Virus record (IMG/VR): IMGVR_UViG_3300046665_000437
Coordinates: 1 to 23,836 of that record
Source of the DNA: a virus
Strand: one strand, 5' to 3'
Length of the DNA stretch: 23,836 nt
Shown here: piece after piece, positions 409 to 22,680 of the stretch
Numbering within the stretch: position 1 is the stretch's first letter
Layout: each line of letters opens with the position of its first letter
Made by a program: the position numbers and the translations under genes
Notes under the pieces: generated by a model
Told to the model about the DNA's origin: nothing
The model's database searches: none
What the model saw: only the letters and a program-made list of their open reading frames with translations

Positions 409-1593
409 TCATGCATTCCTCCTCTTCAGAATCGTCAGCGCTGGTGCGCGCGAGTCGGTTACTGATACCTTATTTGCCGCTTCAATCAACTGATCCAGTT
501 CAGCTGCTGAATAATGGCTGGTGATGCTTCCGTTCTTGTGGCCCAGCAAAGCTTTCCGATCTTCCTCGCTCACGCCTGCTGCACGTAGCCTTCTGCCAAA
601 GGTGTGCTTCAAGTCGTGAACGCGGATGCGCAAGTACCCATCGTGGGCCTTGCGCAGGAACTTCTCTCCCCACTTCGTCGCCGCCCTGACTCGCGCCTTC
701 TTCCAGGCCGAGTCATTCATGCGGTGAACTGTCGTTTCATTCCCTTCACTATCTGGCTTGCCAAATGGAAACACGTACAGCGGATGCTTGCCTCGCTGCT
801 GCTCGATGACCGATTTTGCGACGTCGTTCAAAACCACCAAGCGCTCATCCCGGTTTTTCACGCCGGCCTTCGCGCTTCGGCCTCCAAATCCGGCAGGGAT
901 CAGAAAGACGCTGGTCTTCAGCTCCGGCACCGGAATCTCCCAATCCCACTGCAATTTGCAGACTTCTTGCTCGCGACAACCAGTGTTCACCTTGAACATG
1001 GCCATCGTCTGCAGGTGAGCCGGTAACTCTGCGAACAGAATCGATTGCTCATCCCAGGACAAAGGGTAGGGCTTTCGTGAGTTCGTCTTTTCATCCAACA
1101 GTGAAATCATCGGCACCACGTCCAGCCATGGGCGCCGCTCCTCGTCACGCCACTTCCTCGCGCAAAGATTCAGAACCCTGATGACGCGTTGCAGCGCGAT
1201 ATTCACGGTTCGGTTTGTCACAGGCTTTCCCTTTTCCGGCTGAAGCTTGGACTGGATGTAGGGAGCCAGTGAGTCGTCATCTATATGGGTGATCGGCAGG
1301 TGTCCGATAAACGGGTCGAGCTGTTCCATGTAAGTAGCTGAAATGTGGATTGATGCCTGATTCTTCACCTCGAGCAGGAAGCGAATCGACGCCTCCCGCC
1401 ACGTCCGGACCTGGCGCACGCCGTACACCTTGCGCTGGCGCAACTTCTCCAGCATGTGAATCAGGTACTGCTCGGCTTCCGCCCGGTCACTAGTTCCAGT
1501 ACTTTCCTGAATTCGTTCTCCTCTGTATTTTTTGTCAATCTTCCAGATGCCGCTCGGCATTTTCTGGAGCCCGGTGATTGCTTTTTGGGCCAT
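409..1593 (-). CDS. int: Phage integrase, tyrosine recombinase
   Basis: A 394-residue tyrosine recombinase that integrates and excises the prophage at tRNA-Pro. The N-terminal part (about 1-60) looks like an arm-type DNA-binding domain. A SAM-like core-binding domain follows (about 62-165), then the catalytic domain with R207 in TGCREQE, the box HDLK at 326-329, H352 in LGHKN and the nucleophile Y361 in SHYSA. The second arginine of the usual HxxR box is a lysine (HDLK), which I recognise as normal for this Pseudomonas integrase group. The start is supported by AAGGAG 8 nt upstream of the ATG. It is the last gene of the leftward operon and overlaps the excisionase-like gene by 133 bp. Confidence 0.95.
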   Translation of the reverse strand: MAQKAITGLQKMPSGIWKIDKKYRGERIQESTGTSDRAEAEQYLIHMLEKLRQRKVYGVRQVRTWREASIRFLLEVKNQASIHISATYMEQLDPFIGHLPITHIDDDSLAPYIQSKLQPEKGKPVTNRTVNIALQRVIRVLNLCARKWRDEERRPWLDVVPMISLLDEKTNSRKPYPLSWDEQSILFAELPAHLQTMAMFKVNTGCREQEVCKLQWDWEIPVPELKTSVFLIPAGFGGRSAKAGVKNRDERLVVLNDVAKSVIEQQRGKHPLYVFPFGKPDSEGNETTVHRMNDSAWKKARVRAATKWGEKFLRKAHDGYLRIRVHDLKHTFGRRLRAAGVSEEDRKALLGHKNGSITSHYSAAELDQLIEAANKVSVTDSRAPALTILKRRNA

Positions 1594-3321: not shown

Positions 3322-3699
3322 TTACTTGTTCTGGCGTAAGGCTTCAGCAGCGCACACAGCGCCGTATTTTTTCATCTGCTCCAGCGTGTAGCCGGGGACT
3401 TCGCGCCCTGGCTGAAGGAAGCCTTCGTGACGTGGCGGGTGCGGCAGCAGCGTGTGAGGTGGGAGCAGCTTTTGCTTTTGTGGCTCAAGCACTTGCACCA
3501 TGGTGCCCTCATCAGTGAGGGGACCATTCACCACTGCGCGGACATCCTCGGGCGGGGCGGCGAGAATTGCGCTTGACTGCTCGCGATCAATCCGCCGCAT
3601 ATCAAACACGCTAACCTCGCCTGAGGGGAACCACGCGTACGACAGGACGCGCTCCAGCAACTCGCGCGGCACGCTCACCTGTTCGGTTTTGTTGGTCAT
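3322..3699 (-). CDS. Hypothetical phage protein with VSVPRELLERV start
   Basis: A 125-residue protein starting MTNKTEQVSVPRELLERVL. The N-terminal phrase VSVPRExL also occurs in the gene at 3827-4357, so the two may share an N-terminal domain. The middle contains a proline- and leucine-rich stretch (LLPPHTLLPHPPRH) and the end has a short helix with EQMKKYGAVCAAEALRQ. The start at 3699 is chosen over the in-frame ATG at 3738 because it forms an ATGA overlap with the 43-residue gene upstream. No known family. Confidence 0.6.
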   Translation of the reverse strand: MTNKTEQVSVPRELLERVLSYAWFPSGEVSVFDMRRIDREQSSAILAAPPEDVRAVVNGPLTDEGTMVQVLEPQKQKLLPPHTLLPHPPRHEGFLQPGREVPGYTLEQMKKYGAVCAAEALRQNK

Positions 3700-3827
3700 G
3701 ACTTCAGCCCCGCTGCTTTTTGCATTGCCTTCAAACATGCAAGCTCATAAAGCCCTTGCTCTGTTCCTCGCTTAAAGGCTGCGAATACAAGCCGTTTTTG
3801 TCTGCGAATTATCTCGGGCCATTCCAT
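3696..3827 (-). CDS. Very small basic phage protein (43 aa)
   Basis: ATG at 3827 to TGA at 3696-3698. The product starts MEWPEIIRRQKRLVFAAFKR and ends KAMQKAAGLKS; it is basic and helical. Its start overlaps the stop of the preceding gene by one base (TAATG) and its stop overlaps the next start (ATGA), with in-frame coding between. The double overlap argues for a real gene in a coupled chain. Function unknown. Confidence 0.6.
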   Translation of the reverse strand: MEWPEIIRRQKRLVFAAFKRGTEQGLYELACLKAMQKAAGLKS

Positions 3828-4357
3828 TACTGTTCACCCTTCGGGGCTGGCGCGGATTGGTGGGCAGCCCGTGCACGCATCACTGCATTAGCGCTGTCAG
3901 CCGCATACGCTGCGAGTGGTTCCAGCAACTCCTGCACCTCGGTCAGTTCGTATTGCAGATCGTCGACCCGGTGATCGGCGATGGTCAGGCGCTGCTGGAG
4001 TGCGGCGTTCTCGGCCTGCAGGCGGGTGACGGCGAAGTTCAGTCGCTCGACTTCAACTGCGTAAAACTCGATGTGCCTCAAGTGGTCGTCATGTTCGACA
4101 TACGGCCCAGCATCGTCCCATCGTTGGAACTTGTCGCCATAGAACCCACACGCAACGTCGCAGCGGTCTATCGAGCCCAGACATGCGAGGCGGTACTCCA
4201 AACTTTCCTCCGGCTCCCCGCCCGAAGGCGGTGCGGGCTCGTCGCATGGCTCGCACAGGAACTCAACCGCTTGATCCTGTAGTTCCTCATGCGACATCTG
4301 CATCAGCGACACTTGCGTTAGCCATTCACGCGGCACGCTCACAAACTCCTGACTCAT
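3827..4357 (-). CDS. Hypothetical coiled-coil phage protein
   Basis: A 176-residue protein. The first 12 residues (MSQEFVSVPREW) echo the N-terminus of the gene at 3322-3699. Residues about 92-150 form a heptad-rich segment (VEVERLNFAVTRLQAENAAL and onward) likely to be a coiled coil. Residues about 40-60 are an acidic proline-rich linker. It joins the previous gene by an ATGA overlap. Proteins of this build are frequent in Pseudomonas prophages between int and the recombination genes, and no function is established that I know of. Confidence 0.65.
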   Translation of the reverse strand: MSQEFVSVPREWLTQVSLMQMSHEELQDQAVEFLCEPCDEPAPPSGGEPEESLEYRLACLGSIDRCDVACGFYGDKFQRWDDAGPYVEHDDHLRHIEFYAVEVERLNFAVTRLQAENAALQQRLTIADHRVDDLQYELTEVQELLEPLAAYAADSANAVMRARAAHQSAPAPKGEQ

Positions 4358-4557
4358 AACCCCTCCTGCGGATACGTGCCCACTTCGCCCTGGTCGGCGG
4401 CGTTGGCGGCTTGGATGATTTGACGGCCGATTTCTCGGGCCTGTTTTGGCGTGATCGGTTCGAAAGGCAGTTGGCGAAAGCTGATCACCGTGGTGCTCTC
4501 CGATGGGCTGATGATGGTGGCGACCACCTGGTGCTGCGCACTTGGCGATTCAGGCAT
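4354..4557 (-). CDS. Hypothetical phage protein
   Basis: A 67-residue protein starting MPESPSAQHQVVATIISPSE. It has a strand-rich N-terminal half (VVATIISPSESTTVISFRQL) and a C-terminal helix (TPKQAREIGRQIIQAANAA). AGGG stands about 8 nt before the ATG at 4557; the longer start at 4578 would run into the palindromic sites just upstream. The gene overlaps the next by ATGA. It is the first gene after the paired palindromes at 4570-4615, which may control it. Not recognised. Confidence 0.55.
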   Translation of the reverse strand: MPESPSAQHQVVATIISPSESTTVISFRQLPFEPITPKQAREIGRQIIQAANAADQGEVGTYPQEGL

Positions 4558-4569
4558 GGCGATATCCCT

Positions 4570-4615
4570 GTAACCCAATCAGGTTACTTTTCGATATGTA
4601 ACCTCTGAAGGTTAC
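4570..4615. promoter_or_regulatory. Two tandem 18-bp palindromes, GTAACC-N6-GGTTAC
   Basis: GTAACCCAATCAGGTTAC (4570-4587) and GTAACCTCTGAAGGTTAC (4598-4615) are perfect inverted repeats in their six outer bases, and both are followed by TTT. Their centres are exactly 28 bp apart. They lie between the methyltransferase stop and the next minus-strand gene, 12 bp or more upstream of its start. The spacing between half-sites (6 bp) differs from the CI operators of this phage (half-sites separated by 4 bp), so a different dimeric repressor is likely. The inner half-sites also pair as GGTTAC/GTAACC, so a hairpin is the alternative. Confidence 0.6.
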
Positions 4616-4626
4616 TTTGGGGTCAG

Positions 4627-6732
4627 TCAGGCGGCAGCGGCCTGGCGGTGAGCTGCGCGCCATGGGTCGTTGGCGCGGGCGAGGGCGGCCATCGGGGGAG
4701 GGCTCACGCTGTTGCCGCACATGTGGACCTGCTCGGTCTTCGTGAACGGCTTGCCGTCGGCGCCGTGCGTGATGACGTAGTCCGGCGGGAAGCCCTGCGC
4801 TCGGTACAGCTCGGCCGGTTGCAGCATCCGCAGCCGGATATCGACAATCACATAGGGCGTGCCCTTGACCATGACGGTTACCAGGCCCAGCCGATCCTTG
4901 GTCGTGATCGTTGCCGCCGGTTTGCTGATATCGCCCGCGTTACTAGTGCCGTAGTAACTGATGAGGAACGCAGCAACCCGCAGCGCGCCTTCTTCATGCT
5001 CTGGCGACAGTTCGAAACTGACCAGCGAGCTCTTCCCGCCACCACCGGCAGTGATCGTCGGCGATGGGGCGGTCAGTGCCTGGCCGACGCTGGCGCCGAA
5101 CTGACGCTCCATGAAGGCAGTCATCAGGCCGTGATGGGTGCCGCCAGCACTTACGGTGTGCAGGGGCTCATCCGCCGCCCGGGCGTCACAGTTGCCGCGC
5201 AGGTGCAGGAGACTCGCCGTCACCAACTGCTGCTGACTGCCGGTATTCGTCACCGTGGTCATCGGGTCGTTGAGGCTTTTGGCGTCGGTGGTGTTGAACC
5301 CACCATTCATCTGGGCCATGAACGCGGTGGCGATGCCCATGGCGTGGGCGGCGCCTGCTGGGCGCTGGTAGTTGCCGCCGCTGGTGATCGTCGGCAACGG
5401 CTCGTCGAGCGCTTTGCCCTCATCGTCAAACCGGAACTTGACCTGGTGCGCCGATGCGATCGAATGTCCGCCGCTGGCGGTAACAGTGCCCAGTGGGTCG
5501 GCGGAGGATTTACTGCCGTCACCCCAGCGCTGAACACCACCTGGCTTCCCTTCACCGTGGGCCGCCGTGACCATCACCGGACTGATCAAGGTGAGTTCAC
5601 CGCGGTTGGCGCAGGTCACGGTCGGCAGAGGTTCGAGCGGAGCGTTGATGCGGTCGCTGCCCTGGTGAGTTGCTGGCGCGATCACCGGGCTGACGACAGA
5701 GAACGCCCCGCCTTTCGGGTACGACGTGACTGTGCGCAGCGGCTCATCCAGCGACTGCACGGTCTCGGTCGACCAATTCGCGATCGGCACGATAAAGGGG
5801 GCTGGGTTGTCGATGACGAACTTCTTCATGCCTTTGGCGATGCGGCGCTTGGTGGCGTCGGCCAACTCATCCTTTCGCCCGAAGATGCTTTTGCCCAAGT
5901 CGCTGAAATCGATGCACTCGGCGGCGGTGCGGTACTTCTGCTGGCCCTTGCCTGGCTTCTTGGCGTGGGTCGGCTCCGGCCACACGATTGGCTGTTCGTC
6001 ACACCGGGCGATCATGAATAGGCGCTCCCGGCTGGTCGGCGCGCCGAAGTCGCAGGCTTTGATGACACGCCACTCGACCACGTAGCCCATACCTTCCAGC
6101 AGCTGTACGAACCGGCGCCATGTAGTGCCGCGGCGCTTTGGATCAGGAACCAGAAACTGCTGGCCGACCGGGACGATCTCGCCAGGCGCGGCGACCACCT
6201 TCTCGATGACTTCCTTCCCTTTGACATTCAGCACGGTCACCAGTTTGATGGCCCGGCCGGTTTCCTTGTCGCGCTTGGCGATCAGCGGACCCCACTGCAG
6301 GATCTGCTTTACGTTCTCCAGGCTGATCACGCGGGGCTTTTTCTTGCCTGCCCACTTCAGGCCAATCCATGACAGGTTTCGGATCTCGCGCTTGCGCGGC
6401 TGGCCTCCGGCGGCCTGGCTGTGGTGCGTGCAGTCCGGCGACATGTGGAACCAGCCGACCGCCTTGCCGCCGCACTCCGTATCCGGATCACCATCGAACA
6501 CGTCGGTGGTGAAATGCTTAGCGCCCGGATGGTTGATGGTGTGCATGCTGATCGCTTTGGCGCTGTGGTTCTTTGCCACGCTCACCTTGCGACCCAGGCC
6601 CATCTCCAACCCGGTACCGGCGCCGCCACCGCCGCAGAAGAAGTCCACGACGATCTCATCGTCTTGCGGATCGAAGCCAAGGCCGTACTGCGTTTTGAAA
6701 TCGAAGGGGTGTTTCTTCTGATGTGCGGACAT
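4627..6732 (-). CDS. C5-cytosine DNA methyltransferase with repeat-rich target domain
   Basis: A 701-residue enzyme that transfers a methyl group from S-adenosylmethionine to C5 of cytosine in DNA. Motif I is DFFCGGGGAGTG (30-41). The catalytic cysteine is C101 in SPDCTHHSQA, motif VI is EN (139-140) in SLENVK, motif VIII is DFGAPTSRERLF (228-239) and motif X is MCGNSVSPPP (671-680). The target-recognition region between VIII and X is very long (about 250-640) and contains eight copies of a nine-residue unit like DEPLxTVTS, at about 329, 366, 411, 443, 488, 521, 554 and 603. No cognate endonuclease is adjacent, so it probably protects phage DNA from host restriction rather than serving in an R-M pair. 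Confidence 0.93.
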   Translation of the reverse strand: MSAHQKKHPFDFKTQYGLGFDPQDDEIVVDFFCGGGGAGTGLEMGLGRKVSVAKNHSAKAISMHTINHPGAKHFTTDVFDGDPDTECGGKAVGWFHMSPDCTHHSQAAGGQPRKREIRNLSWIGLKWAGKKKPRVISLENVKQILQWGPLIAKRDKETGRAIKLVTVLNVKGKEVIEKVVAAPGEIVPVGQQFLVPDPKRRGTTWRRFVQLLEGMGYVVEWRVIKACDFGAPTSRERLFMIARCDEQPIVWPEPTHAKKPGKGQQKYRTAAECIDFSDLGKSIFGRKDELADATKRRIAKGMKKFVIDNPAPFIVPIANWSTETVQSLDEPLRTVTSYPKGGAFSVVSPVIAPATHQGSDRINAPLEPLPTVTCANRGELTLISPVMVTAAHGEGKPGGVQRWGDGSKSSADPLGTVTASGGHSIASAHQVKFRFDDEGKALDEPLPTITSGGNYQRPAGAAHAMGIATAFMAQMNGGFNTTDAKSLNDPMTTVTNTGSQQQLVTASLLHLRGNCDARAADEPLHTVSAGGTHHGLMTAFMERQFGASVGQALTAPSPTITAGGGGKSSLVSFELSPEHEEGALRVAAFLISYYGTSNAGDISKPAATITTKDRLGLVTVMVKGTPYVIVDIRLRMLQPAELYRAQGFPPDYVITHGADGKPFTKTEQVHMCGNSVSPPPMAALARANDPWRAAHRQAAAA

Positions 6733-7448: not shown

Positions 7449-8567
7449 TTAGCGATCCCCGACTGCGTCGTGGAAGACATCCATCTGCGCCGCGCCATCA
7501 TGCCAGGCTGCGTCGATTCGCGCTCTGGCCATTGCTGCGTATTCGGGGTTTAGCTCACACAGGATCGACCGGCGGCCTTCCTGCATTGATACCAGCGATG
7601 TGGTACCGGCACCGCCAAATGGGTCTAGCACCAGTCCGCCGCGCGGGGCACCGGCCAAGATGCATGGCCTGATCAGGTCGGGCGGGAAGGTGGCGAAGTG
7701 GGCGCCCTTGAAGCTGTGTGTGGACACAGTCCAGACGCTGCGCTTGTTTCGCTCGGTCGGCATGATCGCAAGCGCTGAGTTCATCGACTCATTGTCCTTG
7801 ATCCTGCCGCGCTGGCGCTCGTCGGCGTCAGTGCCATGGCCCCAGCCAACGCCGTTCGACTTCCGGGCCGTCGCTTTCATGTTCCCGTTGCTCTTGGCGC
7901 CCCCGTTGGCCCGCTCGCTGCCGATCTGCGCCTGAACGTCCTGAGACAGTCTGGCGTGAGTGTTCGGCGAGCATGGTTCAAGAATGGCTGCTTGGTCGAA
8001 GTAGTACTTCTTCGATTTGCTCAGCAGGAAGATGTACTCATGCGACTTCGTACACCGGTCCCGGACGCTTTCAGGCATCGGGTTCGGCTTGTTCCATATG
8101 ATGTCCTGTCGCAGATACCAGCCGTCGTCCTGCAGGGCGAACGCTAAGCGCCACGGCATGCCCATCAGGTCCTTCGACTTCATGCCCAGTTCGCGTCCGC
8201 GCACTCCAGTACCAGATTTGAACCGTGGGTGTTCATTGATCTGGCGGGCCGATGTGACGCTACGCCCGGACATCTGGCCGTCGCCTTGAGGCCTACCTTG
8301 CGCGCCCCAACTACCGGCGTAGCTGTCGCCCATGTTCACCCAGGCCGTCCCGTCGTCGCGGAGTACTCGCCGCACTTCGCGGAAGACGTCGACCAGGCGA
8401 GCGATGAACTCGGCCGGTGATTCTTCTAAACCGATCTGGCCCTCGACGCCGTAGTCGCGCAGGCCGAAATAGGGCGGGCTTGTCACGCAGGTGTGAACTG
8501 ACTTTTCCGGCAGCGTCCGCATCATCTCGATGCAGTCTCCGACCAGAATCTGGTGCTGCTGGCTCAT
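7449..8567 (-). CDS. Beta-class DNA amino-methyltransferase (N4-cytosine or N6-adenine)
   Basis: A 372-residue S-adenosylmethionine-dependent DNA methyltransferase. The catalytic motif TSPPY (29-33) comes before the SAM-binding motif DPFGGAGTT (315-323), the order that defines the beta class. FATFP (291-295) is the usual motif X. SPPY is more often seen in N4-cytosine enzymes, but the substrate base cannot be fixed from motifs. Residues about 200-275 are a polar, glycine-rich insert likely to form part of the target recognition region. No restriction gene is adjacent. It converges on the DUF2971 gene with 16 bp between stops. Confidence 0.9.
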   Translation of the reverse strand: MSQQHQILVGDCIEMMRTLPEKSVHTCVTSPPYFGLRDYGVEGQIGLEESPAEFIARLVDVFREVRRVLRDDGTAWVNMGDSYAGSWGAQGRPQGDGQMSGRSVTSARQINEHPRFKSGTGVRGRELGMKSKDLMGMPWRLAFALQDDGWYLRQDIIWNKPNPMPESVRDRCTKSHEYIFLLSKSKKYYFDQAAILEPCSPNTHARLSQDVQAQIGSERANGGAKSNGNMKATARKSNGVGWGHGTDADERQRGRIKDNESMNSALAIMPTERNKRSVWTVSTHSFKGAHFATFPPDLIRPCILAGAPRGGLVLDPFGGAGTTSLVSMQEGRRSILCELNPEYAAMARARIDAAWHDGAAQMDVFHDAVGDR

Positions 8568-9151: not shown

Positions 9152-9895
9152 TCAGGCTGGAATAACCGCTATGCAGGTGCTGACCAAGGTGCCTGACGCT
9201 TTGAACGAGGCATCCGGCAAATTCACTATGCTGCCGCTGCGCGCCGACACAATGCCCCGGAAGTCGCGTGACAACGCATCCTCCCGAAACATGACGCCAG
9301 TCGGCATTACCGCAACCAGCAGTCCGCGCGGCTTCAGGAATTTCAGAGCGTGCAGGACGTGGTGGATGTCGCTGCGTTTCTTGTCGAATGGTGGGTTCAT
9401 CACCACTCGGTCGTATTTCTGAGTAGGCTCTTCAGATAGGAAGTCGCCGACGACAACTGACTGGTAGACCTTTGCGTCGATCAGATGCTTGGCGTTTTCT
9501 GGCAGGAGCTCGATGCAGTCAACGTCAACGCCCTCAAGGATCAAGGCCTCAGCAATCGCGCCGCGACCGGCCGACGGTTCAAGAGCAAACATTCCAACAC
9601 CGACTTGAGCGAGATCAATCAACTTAGCCACAACTGCTGGCGGCGTCGGGAAATAACCGAAGTCCTGGGGCACCGTGACCTCGCCGGTCATGATGATGTT
9701 CTCGATAGATTCTGCCGCGTCGCCGTGAAACAGATGTGCTTTCGCCTTCGTGTTCCACTTGCCGCCGGCGGCTTTCAATGTTTTGTCCAAGCGGGAATAA
9801 AGCCCGCGCTCAAGCTGGCCGCCGGTGATGAACAGCTTGTTACCTTCGGTGCGGGACGCGCTCAGCAGCGCCATCACGTCGGTTGCGACCTTCAT
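9152..9895 (-). CDS. Gamma-class SAM-dependent methyltransferase
   Basis: A 247-residue protein. YFPTPP (81-86) matches motif X, FALEPSAGRGAIAEAL (103-118) binds the SAM methionine end, IEL (128-130) is the acidic strand-2 residue and NPPF (167-170) is the catalytic motif IV. Motif I before IV with NPPF is the pattern of gamma-class N6-adenine enzymes. The N-terminal 70 residues (QLERGLYSRLDKTLKAAGGK) are an extra segment seen in phage members. GGAG stands 7 nt before the ATG. It is the third methyltransferase in 5.3 kb. DNA is the likely substrate, though a small protein of this shape could also modify RNA or protein. Confidence 0.85.
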   Translation of the reverse strand: MKVATDVMALLSASRTEGNKLFITGGQLERGLYSRLDKTLKAAGGKWNTKAKAHLFHGDAAESIENIIMTGEVTVPQDFGYFPTPPAVVAKLIDLAQVGVGMFALEPSAGRGAIAEALILEGVDVDCIELLPENAKHLIDAKVYQSVVVGDFLSEEPTQKYDRVVMNPPFDKKRSDIHHVLHALKFLKPRGLLVAVMPTGVMFREDALSRDFRGIVSARSGSIVNLPDASFKASGTLVSTCIAVIPA

Positions 9896-12869: not shown

Positions 12870-13544
12870 TTAGGCGTGGGTGATCACAAGATCGCTAATG
12901 ATGCAGATCGAGCCTTCTTCCGCCGGGGTGGCGTCAGTGAAATCGATCTGGTTGTAGACGCCGCCGTGGAAGTCAAACACCTGCGAGTTCCAGGAGGCAT
13001 CGAGCTGCAGATCGCCCGATGTACCGATGTTGCCGTTGTATTCCACAGTCACGCGCGCCACACCGGACGACGTGACTCGGATAGTTACTTTGAACTTCGC
13101 GCCGAGCGGCACGCCCTTGAGCACCGTCGAGTTGACCGGGTCTGTCTGGTTGAAGCTCTGGCGGAAGCCCATCGTGATGTTCCCTTTTTGCCAGAACACC
13201 TTGATGGCAGGGCTGTCGTCGTTCTTCACATGCATCTGCGAGATGACGACCTTCTGAGCAGAGTTGACCTTTGTCACGGTCATCTCTTGATAGTTGATGT
13301 GTTCGGAAGCACTGGCGAGCGACCAGTAGATCGACTCTTTCCATTCGCACCGGGTTCGGTGTGTGCTTTTGCTGGAAGCGCCCTTTGTCGGCGCGGACAG
13401 TTGCAGCGAGCCGTCCGGGAGGACCGTCACAACGCTGGGGAACTGCGCAATGGCCTGAGCTCCGTTGAGCTCAAGTGCAACCGGGTTGGTCGCGGATGTT
13501 GCTACCGGCGTTGCGATCGTAAGATTGCTGATGTTTACAGTCAT
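12870..13544 (-). CDS. PL7 alginate-lyase-like protein
   Basis: A 224-residue beta-rich protein with the three signature blocks of polysaccharide lyase family 7. RCEWKE (65-70) corresponds to the RSELRE block, QMH (103-105) to the catalytic QIH, and FHGGVYNQ (192-199) to FKAGVYNQ with the catalytic tyrosine (Y197) and Q199. PL7 enzymes cleave alginate by beta-elimination. The K of the third block is replaced by H193 and the R of the first by K69, so activity or specificity may differ. No signal peptide is visible; the protein would need lysis to reach exopolysaccharide, or would act inside the cell. It is located in the early leftward operon, not with the tail genes. Confidence 0.8.
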   Translation of the reverse strand: MTVNISNLTIATPVATSATNPVALELNGAQAIAQFPSVVTVLPDGSLQLSAPTKGASSKSTHRTRCEWKESIYWSLASASEHINYQEMTVTKVNSAQKVVISQMHVKNDDSPAIKVFWQKGNITMGFRQSFNQTDPVNSTVLKGVPLGAKFKVTIRVTSSGVARVTVEYNGNIGTSGDLQLDASWNSQVFDFHGGVYNQIDFTDATPAEEGSICIISDLVITHA

Positions 13545-14744: not shown

Positions 14745-14806
14745 ATAACTCAAGTTATGGAATTGATCATAACCTAGGTTTGTTTTGTGTCAATAACCAA
14801 GGTTAT
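14745..14806. promoter_or_regulatory. Left operator OL: three 14-bp CI/Cro sites
   Basis: ATAACTCAAGTTAT (14745-14758), ATAACCTAGGTTTG (14769-14782) and ATAACCAAGGTTAT (14793-14806) have centres exactly 24 bp apart. They overlap the start point, the -10 and the -35 of PL. The first is the same site, in inverted orientation, as one in OR. Confidence 0.88.
14766..14793 (-). promoter_or_regulatory. Leftward early promoter PL
   Basis: On the minus strand TTGACA (14793-14788) and TATGAT (14771-14766) are separated by 16 bp. The start point is near 14759. It is the strongest sigma-70 promoter visible in the window and sits inside the three operators, so it is shut in the lysogen and would drive the leftward operon after induction. 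Confidence 0.88.
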
Positions 14807-14865: not shown

Positions 14866-15117
14866 TCAGTCTTCCTTCGGTACGGTCCAGAAGACCTGAA
14901 CATGACCGTCGTCACGGTGAGCAATGGTCACATGGTCATTCTCGGCAATCTCGTCCAACAGCTGATCCCAGTCCTCAGGCCTGTCTGTAGGTAATCGCTC
15001 AAGCAGCGCGGCCTTCGCCTTCTGCGCCGTTGGAGAATTGATGATCGCCTGCACGCGCATGCCGAGCATGCCGTAAGTGGTCTGTGCTGCTGGGGGAATA
15101 GAGTTTGCCTTAGCCAT
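14866..15117 (-). CDS. DUF1654 family protein, SOS-controlled
   Basis: An 83-residue protein starting MAKANSIPPAAQTTYGMLGM, with VQAIINSPTAQKAKAALLER and DWDQLLDEIAENDHVTIAHR. These are recognisable features of DUF1654, a small family found mostly in Pseudomonas and its phages. GAGGAGG precedes the ATG at 15117; the longer frame to 15195 would span the LexA box and is rejected. A perfect LexA box lies 18 bp upstream and a terminator directly downstream, so this is a single-gene SOS unit inside the immunity region. Its role is unknown. Confidence 0.85.
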   Translation of the reverse strand: MAKANSIPPAAQTTYGMLGMRVQAIINSPTAQKAKAALLERLPTDRPEDWDQLLDEIAENDHVTIAHRDDGHVQVFWTVPKED

Positions 15118-15134
15118 GTGATCCTCCTCGATAG

Positions 15135-15150
15135 CTGTATATGCATACAG
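15135..15150. promoter_or_regulatory. LexA (SOS) box
   Basis: CTGTATATGCATACAG matches CTGT-N8-ACAG exactly and is itself a near-perfect palindrome. It stands 18 bp before the DUF1654 start codon. Host LexA should repress the gene until DNA damage. A clear -35/-10 pair for the promoter could not be fixed (TTGTCA near 15180 is a candidate). Confidence 0.88.
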
Positions 15151-15284
15151 TAACAATTTGGATGAATAAGTCACCTGACAAGTTTTCGCGCACATTTCTA
15201 CGGTTCAATTAGCGCCTCACCTGAGGCATCCATCGCTGCGAGAGCAAATGTGTAAAGTTTTCAAGCAGGTCCATTTCAGGGACG

Positions 15285-15309
15285 AAAAAAAGCCCGCGCT
15301 TGGCGGGCT
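15285..15309 (-). terminator. Rho-independent terminator after the rex-position gene
   Basis: On the minus strand GCCCGC-CAAGC-GCGGGC is followed by seven T residues. It closes the cI transcription unit. The 15151-15284 stretch beyond it holds only the upstream region of the DUF1654 gene. Confidence 0.9.
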
Positions 15310-15331: not shown

Positions 15332-16288
15332 TCACGGCACTACAGCTAGGATTATGGTGCTGACTATTTCATCGGACTCAATCACCGAAAACTGCTGGAC
15401 TCTGATTGACTTTGAATCTCGCATGGAGTCGAACAGGGTTTTGACATCTTGGGGTGCGAAGGTGCTGAGATCGACTTTCCCCGGAAAGGCATACTCATGG
15501 TCTGCAAGCCGGAGCGTAAGCGAAAGGCTATTCTTCGTCCGCTTGATCATATCGATCTGAACGTAGTCGGTGCGGTGAGCGCGGAACCTGTCGGCAGGCT
15601 CATTATCGCGAACTCGCTGGAGGTCTTGCGCGTCGTAGTGCTCGCCTTGAATATCCATTCCGTCAGCATCAGGGGCGCCCCGAGCTATGGCTCTGTAGCC
15701 TTCTACAGAGCGAGCGCGAATCCGGTGGCCCTCCTCCGGCAAATCTTTATCAGCCAGAGCCTCTACAAGTTTTGCGACCAGCTTGGCGTTGGTGTCTCCT
15801 ACCGTCTGTGACGCACTCATCCGGTGTTTTTCGAGGTCATACGCAAGCCACTCTTTGAACGCGTAGAATCCAGCCGCGGATAGTACTACCACGATCAGCA
15901 GGGAGGCGATCTGAGCCCCAGACAGCTTGTTCATGGGCAGCACACTGAAAAGCTTGTTGAGAATGTCATCTAGAGGGCCCTTTCCTTCGGTGCATCCCGA
16001 GGATATCTGAAATATCAGATCCAGCTCGGCCTTTTCAAGATTGGTAAGCTTTCCGAGCGAAGGGGTGCCGTAACGAACCTCCGCGTACGCGCGCAGCAGC
16101 TGAGAGTGAAACTCGATGAAACCCTCCATCAGTCTGGGCGTCATCGTGCTGTGGTATCTCTCGCCTTCTATGGCTACATCAAAAATAGGCCAGTCTTTGA
16201 ATCGAGGGAGGGCGGTAGTCTCGTCAGCCACCCCAGCCAGAGCCTCAAGAAATGACTCCGGGCTGTTCACCACAACATAGCTTTTCAT
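15332..16288 (-). CDS. One-span membrane protein downstream of cI (rex position)
   Basis: A 318-residue protein, not recognised. Residues 1-120 are a soluble alpha/beta part (SPESFLEALAGVADETTALP), about 127-147 is a hydrophobic segment (GAQIASLLIVVVLSAAGFYAF) that should span the inner membrane, and the last 170 residues form a charged domain with a strand-rich end (SLSLTLRLADHEYAFPGKVD). It follows cI on the same strand with a 57-bp gap and no terminator between, so it should be expressed in the lysogen. In lambda this place holds rexA/rexB, which exclude other phages. A superinfection or abortive-infection role is inferred from position only. Confidence 0.7.
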   Translation of the reverse strand: MKSYVVVNSPESFLEALAGVADETTALPRFKDWPIFDVAIEGERYHSTMTPRLMEGFIEFHSQLLRAYAEVRYGTPSLGKLTNLEKAELDLIFQISSGCTEGKGPLDDILNKLFSVLPMNKLSGAQIASLLIVVVLSAAGFYAFKEWLAYDLEKHRMSASQTVGDTNAKLVAKLVEALADKDLPEEGHRIRARSVEGYRAIARGAPDADGMDIQGEHYDAQDLQRVRDNEPADRFRAHRTDYVQIDMIKRTKNSLSLTLRLADHEYAFPGKVDLSTFAPQDVKTLFDSMRDSKSIRVQQFSVIESDEIVSTIILAVVP

Positions 16289-16345
16289 TGGGTATTGCTT
16301 TCCATTGCATTTGATTGGACTCGGGCGGCGAGGTAATTCAGTGCT

Positions 16346-17023
16346 TCATATCCGCCCGAGAACTTTGCTAGGGCCTAAGATGGCGCCTACGTAGTGGATG
16401 GTCTGTATCTGAGTCCAGGGGATCGTCACCCGATCGTAAGCAGAGTTGATCGACATCAGGCTCACGCCCTCATCGTTCTGAAACAACAGCTCCTTGACCA
16501 TGCTCTGCTCATCGACTGTCGTGACCATCACGTACTCACCTGGCACGAGCCTGTGATTTGGCTCGCACACGGCAACCCAGCCGCTCCGGATCGCTGGCGC
16601 CATCGAGTCTCCGCGAAGGAGTAGGGCGTAGGCATCGGCATCGCGAGACCAAGTCTCAACCCAGCCGCCGGCGTCCTCAAGTCCCACCCAATGACCGTCC
16701 GGGCCCATCTGGGCAGTGCCCATGATGTCGATCTTTCGAGCGGCTGTGGTGATGGGGGGGCCGGGCTCAACGTTGGATTGGTCAGCCGCAGGTTTCGAGT
16801 GGTGTGCTCGGCCATTCTCGCCCGTCGTCAACCATTCCGCCGTCACGCCTAAGGCGCGACCTATATCCACCATCTTCTTAGAGGTGGCATTCCGGCCGCT
16901 TTCAAGGTGTTGGATTGTTACTTGGCTGACGCCCGCGCGCTCGGCCAGCTGCGCCTGACTCAGTTGCAGTTCCGTCCGCCTACCCAGTATTCGATCTTTG
17001 AGCGTTTCGAGCTTCGTATTCAT
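16346..17023 (-). CDS. cI: CI-like repressor (XRE HTH + S24 peptidase)
   Basis: A 225-residue lysogeny repressor. The helix-turn-helix is at about 22-43 (SQAQLAERAGVSQVTIQHLE). The C-terminal LexA/S24 domain has the nucleophile S140 in LRGDSMAP and the general base K177 in SMVKELL, so RecA-stimulated autocleavage is expected. The usual Ala-Gly cleavage bond is not obvious; candidates lie between residues 100 and 120 (MGTAQMG, DAGG). The start at 17023 is preferred over an ATG at 17098 because the longer frame would run through the OR operators. The likely PRM start point falls at the ATG, so the mRNA may be leaderless as in lambda. Confidence 0.95.
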   Translation of the reverse strand: MNTKLETLKDRILGRRTELQLSQAQLAERAGVSQVTIQHLESGRNATSKKMVDIGRALGVTAEWLTTGENGRAHHSKPAADQSNVEPGPPITTAARKIDIMGTAQMGPDGHWVGLEDAGGWVETWSRDADAYALLLRGDSMAPAIRSGWVAVCEPNHRLVPGEYVMVTTVDEQSMVKELLFQNDEGVSLMSINSAYDRVTIPWTQIQTIHYVGAILGPSKVLGRI

Positions 17024-17030
17024 GCCCCGA

Positions 17031-17059
17031 AGGGTAAAACACAGGTTATCGGTACTCAA
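17031..17059 (-). promoter_or_regulatory. Probable PRM promoter for cI
   Basis: On the minus strand TTGAGT (17059-17054) and TACCCT (17036-17031) are 17 bp apart. The start point would be within about two bases of the cI ATG. An operator site (17036-17049) lies between the elements, so full occupancy would repress it. Confidence 0.55.
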
Positions 17060-17095
17060 ATAACATGTGTTTGCCTTGCTCATAACTTGAGTTAT
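17036..17095. promoter_or_regulatory. Right operator OR: three 14-bp CI/Cro sites
   Basis: ATAACTTGAGTTAT (17082-17095) is nearly perfect, ATAACATGTGTTTG (17060-17073) is weaker and AAAACACAGGTTAT (17036-17049) has only one good half-site. Centres are 22 and 24 bp apart. The best site covers the -10 of PR, the next touches its -35 and the poorest covers PRM, the same logic as lambda OR1, OR2 and OR3. Confidence 0.82.
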
Positions 17096-17098
17096 CAT
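17071..17098 (+). promoter_or_regulatory. Rightward early promoter PR
   Basis: TTGCCT (17071-17076) and TATCAT (17093-17098) are 16 bp apart. It reads into cro and the replication operon and is overlapped by the strongest OR site. Confidence 0.8.
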
Positions 17099-17126
17099 TC
17101 CGTGTATGACTCATAGGGGCACGAAC

Positions 17127-17369
17127 ATGCCGAAGAAAGAAAGACCCGTCGAAAAAGTGGTTCGTTTGGCCGGTGGTCAAGCAGAGCTAGCCCGCCGCTG
17201 TAACACGAGTCAGCCACGTATCTGGCAATGCGTTCATCGCAATCAGCGCGTTCCAGCGGATCTCGTGATCCCTTTCGAGCGCGCCGTCGCTGGCCAAGTA
17301 ACCCGACACGAGCTGCGTCCCGATCTTTATCCGAAAGAAGAACAGTCTCATTCGGCCGTTGCCAGCTGA
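17127..17369 (+). CDS. Cro-like repressor (YdaS type)
   Basis: An 80-residue protein starting MPKKERPVEKVVRLAGGQAE. The segment LARRCNTSQPRIWQCVHRNQ is the helix-turn-helix, followed by VPADLVIPFERAV, the layout of the YdaS/Cro family that stands opposite cI in many Gammaproteobacterial phages. AGGGG lies 8 nt before the ATG at 17127; an ATG at 17106 is in frame but too close to the expected start point. It should bind OR and OL to favour lytic growth. Confidence 0.85.
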   Translation: MPKKERPVEKVVRLAGGQAELARRCNTSQPRIWQCVHRNQRVPADLVIPFERAVAGQVTRHELRPDLYPKEEQSHSAVAS

Positions 17370-17435
17370 TCCGGTAGAAACATTTTGCAACGCGTAATGG
17401 CACGCAGCCACATAAACAAATCTGAGGTTTTAGGA

Positions 17436-17861
17436 ATGCAGGATTTTCTGAGGGCGTGTGACGCAGTTGTCGAGGACGCGGACACGAAGAATCTCGCCAC
17501 CTTGATGAACATGCCACCGGTGAGCCTGCTCCAGCGTGCCAATGCGAATTACGACAACGCATGGTTCAACGTGAAGCACCTGTATGCGCTGTTGCTGCAC
17601 ACCAACGACATGCGTCCGCTTGAGGCTTTGGCGGGTGAGTTTGGCTACGCAATCGTCAAGGCTGAAGCGCCAGTCGCGATTGATGTGCACCAAGCACTGA
17701 GCCGTGCCGCCTTTGAGTTTGCCGAGGTGACGGTGGAGACCCACGCCGCCATGGCCGACGGGCGTGTTGACCAGGTTGAGCGCGCGCGAATCTTGAAAGA
17801 GATCGACCACGCCGAAAAGGCTTTGGCTTTGCTCAAGTCCTCGGTGAAAGCGGCTGCCTGA
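17436..17861 (+). CDS. CII-like phage regulatory protein
   Basis: A 141-residue protein starting MQDFLRACDAVVEDADTKNL. The pattern MNMPPVSLLQRANANYD, HLYALLLHTNDMRPLEALA and the long helical C-terminus (RVDQVERARILKEIDHAEKA) fit the phage regulatory protein CII/CP76 family (PF06892). GAGG precedes the ATG at 17436. These proteins are thought to activate lysogeny genes. It is the second gene from PR, where cII lies in lambda. Confidence 0.8.
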   Translation: MQDFLRACDAVVEDADTKNLATLMNMPPVSLLQRANANYDNAWFNVKHLYALLLHTNDMRPLEALAGEFGYAIVKAEAPVAIDVHQALSRAAFEFAEVTVETHAAMADGRVDQVERARILKEIDHAEKALALLKSSVKAAA

Positions 17862-20957: not shown

Positions 20958-21385
20958 TGCCCCTCAAGATGAAGCCGTTCACGGCGAAGAAGCCTCGCAA
21001 GGCACGGATCGACCGGGAGGGGCTGGAGCAGGCCGCGTTGATCCTGGTGTTGAAACTCCATCACCCGGAAGCCGCGAAGCTGATTTATCACGTCCCCAAC
21101 GGCGGACACCGGCACGTCAAAGTCGCGATGGAGCTGAAGAAACAGGGCGTTCGCGCGGGCGTGCCTGACTTGGTGCTGCCGATGGCACGCGGGGGCTATT
21201 TCGGCTTGTACATCGAGTTCAAGGCTGAGCCACCGTACGACGCGGATGTTTCGCCGGAGCAGGACGCCTACCTGCACCTGCTGATCGAACAGGGCTATTT
21301 GGCGATTGTATGTCGCGGGCAAGTCGACGCGCTCGAGGCCATTCGCTCCTACCTACTCCAGCCGCCAACGAGGGTCGCCGCGTGA
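20957..21385 (+). CDS. VRR-NUC domain nuclease
   Basis: A 142-residue protein of the PD-(D/E)XK superfamily, VRR-NUC branch. Key parts are EGLEQAALILVL (21-32), HVPNGGHRH (45-53), GVPDLVLP with D71, EFKA with E87 and K89, and SPEQ followed by LHLLIEQGYLAIV. Standalone phage VRR-NUC proteins are thought to resolve branched DNA. The start is TGATG-coupled; a GTG at 20954 is also in frame. Confidence 0.88.
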   Translation: MPLKMKPFTAKKPRKARIDREGLEQAALILVLKLHHPEAAKLIYHVPNGGHRHVKVAMELKKQGVRAGVPDLVLPMARGGYFGLYIEFKAEPPYDADVSPEQDAYLHLLIEQGYLAIVCRGQVDALEAIRSYLLQPPTRVAA

Positions 21386-22680
21386 CGACAGCAGCAGTAA
21401 AAATCACCGAGGCCGAGATCAAGCGCCAGGCCGCCGGCGAAGTCCGAGACTTGCGGGATCACGAGCACCGCGGGCTGTACCTACGCTTCGCCAAAGCGCG
21501 TGCCCGGGCGTCATGGTTCCTGGTGGTGCGCGGCAAGTGGAATCGGATCGGCAGCTATCCGGACTTGTCCGTGAAGCAGGTGGTCGCCGCGCTGCCGGAC
21601 ATACGCCTGCGACTGGATGCCGGTGACAGTACGAGCCTTTCCAAGTGGCTGACCGCTGGCGAGCTGCTGGAGTGGTACGGCGAGCGGATGGCACGTGACA
21701 GGAGCCTGTCCGATAAGCGCAAGGACACCGCCGCGTCCGCGATCAAGTGCCACCTGATCCCGCGTCTCGGATCTGCGCCGCTGGCGGACATCGACAAGGC
21801 ATTTCTAGACCGTGAGCTGATGTGGCCGCTGCAAGAGACGCTCTCGATTGATTACGTTCGACTGGTCTTCCAGCTGTTGGCACTGGCATTTCGGCAGGCT
21901 CACAAACTCGGGCTGATCGCGAGCAACCCGTTGGCCGGCATCAAGTTCAGCGACTTCTCGAAAGCCAAGGTCACCGTCAAGCCGTCGCGGTTGCGGGGCG
22001 TACATATCGAGGAACTGCTGAGCCTGCTGCTGCGTGACATGTTCCCCTTGATGAATGACGCCATGCTGGCGCTGATGATGCTCTGCCATGGCACTCGGAT
22101 CGGCGAGACCCGACAGGCACGCTGGGACCATGTCAGCTTGGCCGAGCGCGTGTGGTTCCTTCCGGCAGCAGACACGAAGACCCGCGTCGAGCATTACCTG
22201 CCACTGACCGATCAGGTCCGACACCTGCTGATGCGTTACCGCGAAGTGCAGATGGCTCGCGGGTATACCGGGCCATTCCTGTTCCCTGGGCGTCGAGGCA
22301 AGCCGTTGAGCGAGAGCCAGGCCAGTGCAGTGTTCACCAGGCTGGGGCAGGGCGAGTGGACCAGTCACGACCTGCGCAAGCTCGCCCGAACCGGCTGGGC
22401 AGATATCGGCATTGACCATCTGATCGGCGAGCTGCTGATCAACCACGCCATGGGCCACAACGTGAAGGTTTACATCCAGTCGGACGTCATGGCGCGCAAG
22501 CGTGACGCGCTGGAGAAGTGGCACGGCTATCTAGACGGCAAGGGCCTAAGCATCATTCTTGGATTGACCGGCTTTAGATCTGGGGATTCCGATAAATCGC
22601 TAGAGGCCACGGCTGATAAGGGCTGCGACCCCATTCAAGAATCAACCATAGGCGAGGTTTCAAATGATGATTTTAGTTGA
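21382..22680 (+). CDS. Second tyrosine recombinase, in the nin-like region
   Basis: A 432-residue protein from a GTG at 21382 coupled to the previous stop (GTGA). Residues about 1-80 resemble the DUF4102-type arm-binding domain (GLYLRFAKARARASWFLVVR), about 92-190 the core-binding domain and about 205-390 the catalytic domain with R239 in HGTRIGE, H329 and R332 in HDLRKLART, H355/H359 in NHAMGHN and the nucleophile Y364 in VKVYIQ. All catalytic residues are present. It is unrelated in detail to int at 409-1593 and is far from any attachment site. Co-expression with replication genes suggests a role in resolving multimers or recombination during lytic growth, or an integrase captured from another element. 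Confidence 0.9.
   Translation: MTTAAVKITEAEIKRQAAGEVRDLRDHEHRGLYLRFAKARARASWFLVVRGKWNRIGSYPDLSVKQVVAALPDIRLRLDAGDSTSLSKWLTAGELLEWYGERMARDRSLSDKRKDTAASAIKCHLIPRLGSAPLADIDKAFLDRELMWPLQETLSIDYVRLVFQLLALAFRQAHKLGLIASNPLAGIKFSDFSKAKVTVKPSRLRGVHIEELLSLLLRDMFPLMNDAMLALMMLCHGTRIGETRQARWDHVSLAERVWFLPAADTKTRVEHYLPLTDQVRHLLMRYREVQMARGYTGPFLFPGRRGKPLSESQASAVFTRLGQGEWTSHDLRKLARTGWADIGIDHLIGELLINHAMGHNVKVYIQSDVMARKRDALEKWHGYLDGKGLSIILGLTGFRSGDSDKSLEATADKGCDPIQESTIGEVSNDDFS

Follow-up and report, generated by a model that had tools for sequence, protein, structure and literature searches.

A candidate phage-exclusion gene of the phrog_6191 family in the rex slot of a lambda-type immunity region

Introduction

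What does a single membrane-protein gene, placed directly behind the repressor of a temperate phage, do for the lysogen that carries it? The rex slot is the classic location of lysogen-expressed phage defence, and the mechanism of RexAB is still unsettled after about 70 years. Defence genes in this slot include lambda RexAB and RexABpp of Pseudomonas putida, and activation of RexABpp damages the membrane (PMC12894663). BstA, from the Salmonella prophage BTP1, is likewise a defence gene of the slot or immunity region (PMC8585504), and GiPD474, from the Gifsy-1 immunity region, and remAIN are further immunity-region defence genes (PMC12724215).

Here we analyse such a gene in a 23.8-kb window of viral DNA, the window being the whole stretch under study (23,836 nucleotides). 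The original prediction for this locus, made from the sequence before any database was searched, held that the gene follows cI in the rex position, encodes a membrane protein and may serve superinfection exclusion. Our preferred answer, to which we give a probability of about 0.6, is that it is an anti-phage gene expressed in the lysogen, where it would restrict incoming phage by abortive arrest or by a block at the membrane.

Results

The gene occupies the rex slot of a lambda-type immunity region

The gene is an intact 318-codon open reading frame with an ATG start (15332..16288, minus strand). It lies 57 bp downstream of, and on the same strand as, a gene for a CI-type repressor with helix-turn-helix and S24 peptidase domains (16346..17098, minus strand; HTH_3 6.8e-12, Peptidase_S24 2.9e-15, phrog_4 repressor 1.4e-36). 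The true start of cI may be an internal ATG at 17023, because the longer reading frame extends through the right operator.

The pattern ATAACNNNNGTTWK gives nine strand-matches at six places in the 23.8-kb window, against an expectation of 0.03. Three of these places (17036-17049, 17060-17073 and 17082-17095) form an oR-like tripartite operator between cI and a divergent gene for a YdaS-type regulator, which stands in the Cro position (17106..17369, plus strand; PF15943 7.3e-19) and is followed by the gene for a CII-type activator of the Phage_CP76 family (17385..17861, plus strand; PF06892 1.4e-21, phrog_101 6.1e-22). The remaining three (14745-14758, 14769-14782 and 14793-14806) form an oL-like trio, within which lies a pL-like promoter on the minus strand (14766..14793; TTGACA-16-TATGAT, 11/12). 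A leftward promoter within the left operator trio is the arrangement of lambda pL. By its sequence the region is a complete lambda-type immunity region, in which these sites would be used as operators. The 318-codon gene lies between cI and the left operator and therefore in the rexAB slot, a firmer placement than the original prediction had offered when it put the gene in the rex position.

One more gene stands between it and the left operator. This 109-aa open reading frame, in the interval from terminator to oL (14866..15195, minus strand), encodes a DUF1654 protein (PF07867 6.3e-27) and has its own terminator-like site at 14847-14831. We do not propose it as part of the exclusion system. 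Five other loci (L004, L007, L056, L057 and L059) have a DUF1654 gene close to their phrog_6191 homolog too.

Two further claims, that no terminator follows cI and that one follows the 318-codon gene, agree with what we see. A scan of the 57-bp gap gave no promoter match and no terminator. It did show a GC-rich 9-bp hairpin, free of a U tract, over the 3' end of cI and the gap (16321..16360, minus strand; z -1.75), which is possibly an element of mRNA processing or stability between the two genes and may set the ratio of repressor to downstream product. Past the 318-codon gene is an intrinsic terminator-like stem-loop with a T run (15291..15309, minus strand; AGCCCGCCAAGCGCGGGCT followed by TTTTTT), the positional counterpart of Timm in lambda and mEp332. 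Terminator-like sites in the region number two against a shuffle mean of 2.7, that is, not above shuffles, so we take this one on its position and clean sequence. Such an arrangement suggests that cI and the downstream gene are co-transcribed, and that both would be expressed in the lysogen. Against its relatives the gene is under purifying selection, with omega at 0.04-0.27 in the pairs whose dS could be computed, most pairs being dS-saturated.

A sparse family with no assigned function

No family had been recognised for the protein in the original prediction, and on this point the database searches correct it. The profile phrog_6191 (PHROGs v4) matches the window protein at 8.5e-43, aligning residues 29-316 of 318 with positions 35-331 of 338, and it is matched by 35/35 relatives in our alignment A7. 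We assign the protein to phrog_6191 on these matches; the PHROG carries no assigned function. Scans of the window protein against Pfam, NCBIfam and PADLOC returned nothing of note, and PADLOC (2023) holds no member of the family among its entries. Pfam scans over the 35 relatives gave scattered weak matches only, and the A7 profile run against all PDB chain sequences found three unrelated matches (best E 0.11) and no relative. Our literature search turned up no paper on the function of any member. The family reads as an uncharacterised one in a known functional position. We considered the pair DUF7946-DUF7947 (PF25678, PF25679), for what we took to be a similar layout, and rejected it: neither profile matches at the homolog in six records, and hhalign gives the family a probability of 0.3% against two true DUF7946 proteins.

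The gene is a sparse accessory one. In genome sampling phrog_6191 was found in 15/398 Pseudomonas and in 8/296 Vibrionaceae, some of the latter matches being partial. Among 369 genomes of the class the only clear match was that of the centre genome, with two weak ones besides, and a search of genome contigs with a profile of alignment A3 gave three loci. Near-identical copies of mEp33204, the member from E. coli phage mEp332 (EF120456; ABO40672), are present in 18/5426 complete E. coli genomes. The annotation of that protein goes no further than 'T2SS GspM containing' or conserved hypothetical, and its identity to a Pseudomonas member of the window clade is 26%.

A single membrane helix between two modelled domains

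The structure model of the 318-aa protein has a mean pLDDT of 84.2, with both domains confident. It places an N-terminal alpha/beta domain (residues 1-122), a TM helix (about 126-144, also evident as a hydrophobic stretch), a helical linker (about 150-205) and a C-terminal OB-fold domain (233-318). The single hydrophobic helix at 126-144 has an equivalent in all 35 aligned members. The predicted layout of one TM helix between two soluble domains thus stands, while its use as a pointer to phage exclusion does not carry far, since the layout alone is weak evidence for that function.

For the OB domain the best fold match is an asparaginyl-tRNA synthetase (Z 9.1, rmsd 3.2 over 82 residues), and other matches include ExoVII (8.2) and RecO (7.8). 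Matches to toxin B subunits (Z about 7-8, 5-9% identity) were set aside as generic to the OB fold; they imply no function, tied as they are with the OB domains of tRNA synthetase, SSB and RecO/ExoVII. OB folds are common and bind many things. The domain is near neutral, with pI ranging from 4.6 to 9.6 across members, so that charge lends no support to nucleic-acid binding, and for both reasons we claim no ligand for it. The modelled fold is likely to be the binding module of the protein. When the N-terminal domain was modelled alone, the fold search gave nothing usable (best Z 3.5 among 19 weak matches), and matches this weak do not make the model a new fold. Foldseek with the full-length model against a viral library returned uncharacterised proteins only, among them one from Leptospira phage LE1 (2.6e-7).

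The orientation of the protein bears on an alternative, in which it is a membrane-anchored block of phage DNA entry in the style of SieA, Imm or Sie2009, with its OB-fold part in the periplasm. No signal peptide precedes the 122-residue N-terminal domain, which suggests the N-in/C-out topology that is the default for a signal-anchor TM helix. The segments that would then face the periplasm are poor in cysteine (0 per 100 aa in the linker and 0.21 in the OB domain, compared with 0.49 in the N-terminal domain), and one of the OB matches is the periplasmic protein SilF (Z 8.9). However, the charges flanking the helix are mixed, or in several clades favour C-in, and members of the family stand beside retrons, Gabija and restriction-modification genes and on plasmids, as described below, which suggests general defence rather than a phage-specific block. 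We consider a pure entry block of this kind unlikely, although it is the leading alternative to the broader anti-phage role.

Relatives in the same slot of other phages

In mEp332 (annotation of EF120456) the order is cI, homolog, Timm, oL/pL and N, followed by sieB. PhiR12 and phi458 have the same gene order with the homolog in the rexAB slot, and in E. coli prophages it is found there as well. A family member also fills the rex slot of a 7007-bp E. coli plasmid (L113; CP148562.1), which is built from lambda-type genes for replication and immunity (O, P, cII, cro and cI) and resembles a natural lambda-dv plasmid.

Within the clade of the window protein, 17/17 non-redundant members lie behind a CI-type repressor and are co-oriented with it. 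The distance from cI to the gene is mostly between -21 and about 110 bp, reaching 0.5-1 kb in three loci (L004, L005 and L007). Over the whole sampled family 31/63 stand behind a repressor, a proportion that is not a population frequency because the 63 members were gathered by similarity to known members and not at random. The original prediction named homologues mainly away from repressors as a result that would speak against it. The counts from the clade and from the wider sample do not go against an exclusion role in this way, and several of the members away from a repressor stand beside known defence systems. The members with no adjacent repressor, about half of the sampled family, do count against it.

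On the family tree, occupation of the slot requires 8 changes of state, of which at least 7 are forced by well supported branches, compared with a mean of 21 when the states are shuffled. The slot state is therefore clustered but recurrent, and moves into or out of the rex slot have happened at least 7 times.

The gene is retained while the repressor changes

In another alternative the gene has no part in defence but serves regulation or fitness in the lysogen, acting for example on the CI/Cro switch or on host physiology, with the cI operon serving as a site for lysogenic cargo. Position alone predicts lysogenic expression and not defence, and lambda RexA itself has an effect on the switch that does not depend on RexB (PMC11077077).

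Homologs and repressors were compared pairwise. Among the 41 homolog pairs that share at least 90% identity, the repressors differ clearly in 36; the pairs have members in common and are thus not independent of one another. The homologs of L057 and L075 are 97% identical, as are those of L004 and L005, and in both pairs the repressors have no significant similarity. In L076/L077 and L080/L083 the match between the cI proteins is confined to about 160-200 C-terminal residues (82% and 97.5% identical), whereas the downstream genes are about 96% identical. The DNA-binding half, which sets specificity, has therefore been exchanged, and both the remainder of cI and the downstream gene have been retained. 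In the window clade as a whole there are 7 repressor clusters at 50% identity, some of them unrelated to one another, which makes a dedicated partnership with one repressor unlikely. Other members live outside a cI setting altogether and beside defence systems, and we give the regulatory explanation little credence.

The comparison argues instead that what matters is the slot, and hence presumably expression alongside the repressor, rather than partnership with any one repressor. Retention of the gene despite exchange of the repressor, or of its DNA-binding half, offers a direct view of immunity and exclusion evolving as separable modules.

Relatives next to known defence systems

Several members away from the slot have defence genes as neighbours, each to be taken as an individual case. 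In Pasteurella phage Pmp14 (L002) a type VI retron lies at 3551-5915 (HTH_VI 2.4e-32, RT_VI 2.2e-88), and the homolog starts 85 bp past its reverse transcriptase. The two retron genes are annotated there as 'transcriptional regulator' and 'polymerase'. On a Pseudomonas contig, genes for GajA (2.2e-111) and GajB (3.5e-49) of Gabija adjoin a homolog that is cut by the contig end. In Vibrio cincinnatiensis a type I restriction-modification locus is on one side of the homolog and, by reading, an integrase-like gene on the other, and another Pseudomonas locus has MzaC/helicase-like and HNH genes. Three loci (L104-L106) have the homolog, again by reading, next to an smpB-like gene; smpB is a known integration hot spot.

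The Pmp14 arrangement raises the question of whether the protein belongs to a retron-like or two-component system, as an effector subunit dependent on a separately encoded sensor, with the retron pairing as the ancestral state. The 85-bp spacing to the reverse transcriptase speaks for such a pairing. Yet no retron lies close to three near relatives (L017-L019), which share 61-62% identity with the Pmp14 protein, and most members are alone behind cI. At Pmp14 both HTH_VI and RT_VI are present, whereas no reverse transcriptase occurs among the window proteins scanned. Since the close relatives do without a retron we rejected a general role as a retron effector, and a dependence on some separately encoded partner seems to us very improbable. 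The preferred reading remains an anti-phage protein that works by itself.

A second repeated position, identified by reading, is found in four Mu-like elements (L052, L067, L095 and L096), where the homolog lies between gpG-like and protease-like late genes. Expression in a lysogen is not obvious from a late operon, and these cases count against an exclusion role.

Discussion

The case for an anti-phage gene expressed in the lysogen is built from the exact slot, its occupation throughout the window clade, the persistence of the gene through repressor exchange, the recurrence of the slot in the wider family, the defence neighbours, the published genes of the same slot and purifying selection. 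That a single protein could suffice is suggested by a membrane anchor joined to a likely binding domain and by the expected lysogenic expression, in a slot whose known genes defend the lysogen. In the mechanism that we propose, transcription would start at the repressor-maintenance promoter, pass through cI and the gene behind it, and end at the terminator-like site, as the anatomy of the region suggests. The product of the gene would be a single inner-membrane protein composed of an N-terminal domain with an unrecognised fold, the TM helix, the helical linker and the OB fold. This protein may be held in the lysogen membrane as an inactive oligomer, until its soluble part, with the OB fold as the likely binder, senses a product or intermediate of the incoming phage. 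The membrane part would then arrest cell growth, presumably through damage to the membrane, or block the infection there. The superinfecting phage would fail and the kin of the prophage would survive.

A tentative extension, which we regard as somewhat doubtful, describes the family as a new class of one-protein, membrane-anchored immune receptor with sensor and membrane effector in a single chain. It would have moved among bacterial defence islands, Mu-like phages and retron loci, arrived repeatedly and convergently in the rex slot of lambda-type phages and been kept there through repressor exchange.

How does the gene compare with the known residents of the slot? With RexAB and RexABpp it shares the place behind cI and before oL, a membrane component and the expectation of lysogenic expression (PMC12894663, PMC11077077). 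In contrast to the two genes of RexAB, the interval from cI to the terminator-like site here contains only one; RexB has four TM helices and the window protein the single helix at 126-144; and RexA has an RdgC-like fold, whereas the C-terminal domain here is a predicted OB fold. The A7 profile found no sequence relationship to RexA among PDB chain sequences, which include the RexA structure, and the RdgC-like fold of RexA was not among the matches listed in the fold searches.

BstA is similarly a single gene behind cI with many homologs behind repressors and some outside prophages. A putative KilA-N domain and an aba self-immunity element are features of BstA; the window protein combines a TM helix with a predicted OB fold and gave nothing of note in Pfam. 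KilA-N was absent from the Pfam matches of the window protein and from the 25 of 38 weak families listed for its relatives; that of BstA was found with the more sensitive HHpred. As far as its position tells, the window gene would work like RexAB or BstA; by gene number, helix count and sequence it is not RexAB, and we found no link to BstA. GiPD474 is comparable as one-gene phage resistance from a prophage immunity region, a role for which the window gene is a candidate, but has an ATPase domain that was not found in the window protein. A further counterpart is mEp33204, which belongs to the same family and fills exactly the rex slot in its E. coli phage, though its sequence is distant from the window clade.

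The family fills the rex slot in phages and prophages of Pseudomonas, Moraxella, Vibrio and E. coli, with no relation to RexA or RexB shown. To a PHROG without a function, the analysis adds a genomic habit, an architecture and tractable members, of which mEp332 is ready for the laboratory in E. coli K-12. If active, the family would be a new entry for catalogues of prophage defence, being absent from PADLOC 2023.

Some other genes of the window deserve mention. Two of the integrase family (phrog_1) lie near its opposite ends and in opposed directions (409-1593, minus strand, and 21310-22680, plus strand). Three matches to DNA methyltransferase families, at 4627-6732, 7449-8567 and 9152-9895, are all on the minus strand. 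In the left region of the phage, the protein encoded at 12870-13544 (minus strand) contains a full Alginate_lyase2 domain (4.1e-46) and is possibly an exopolysaccharide depolymerase.
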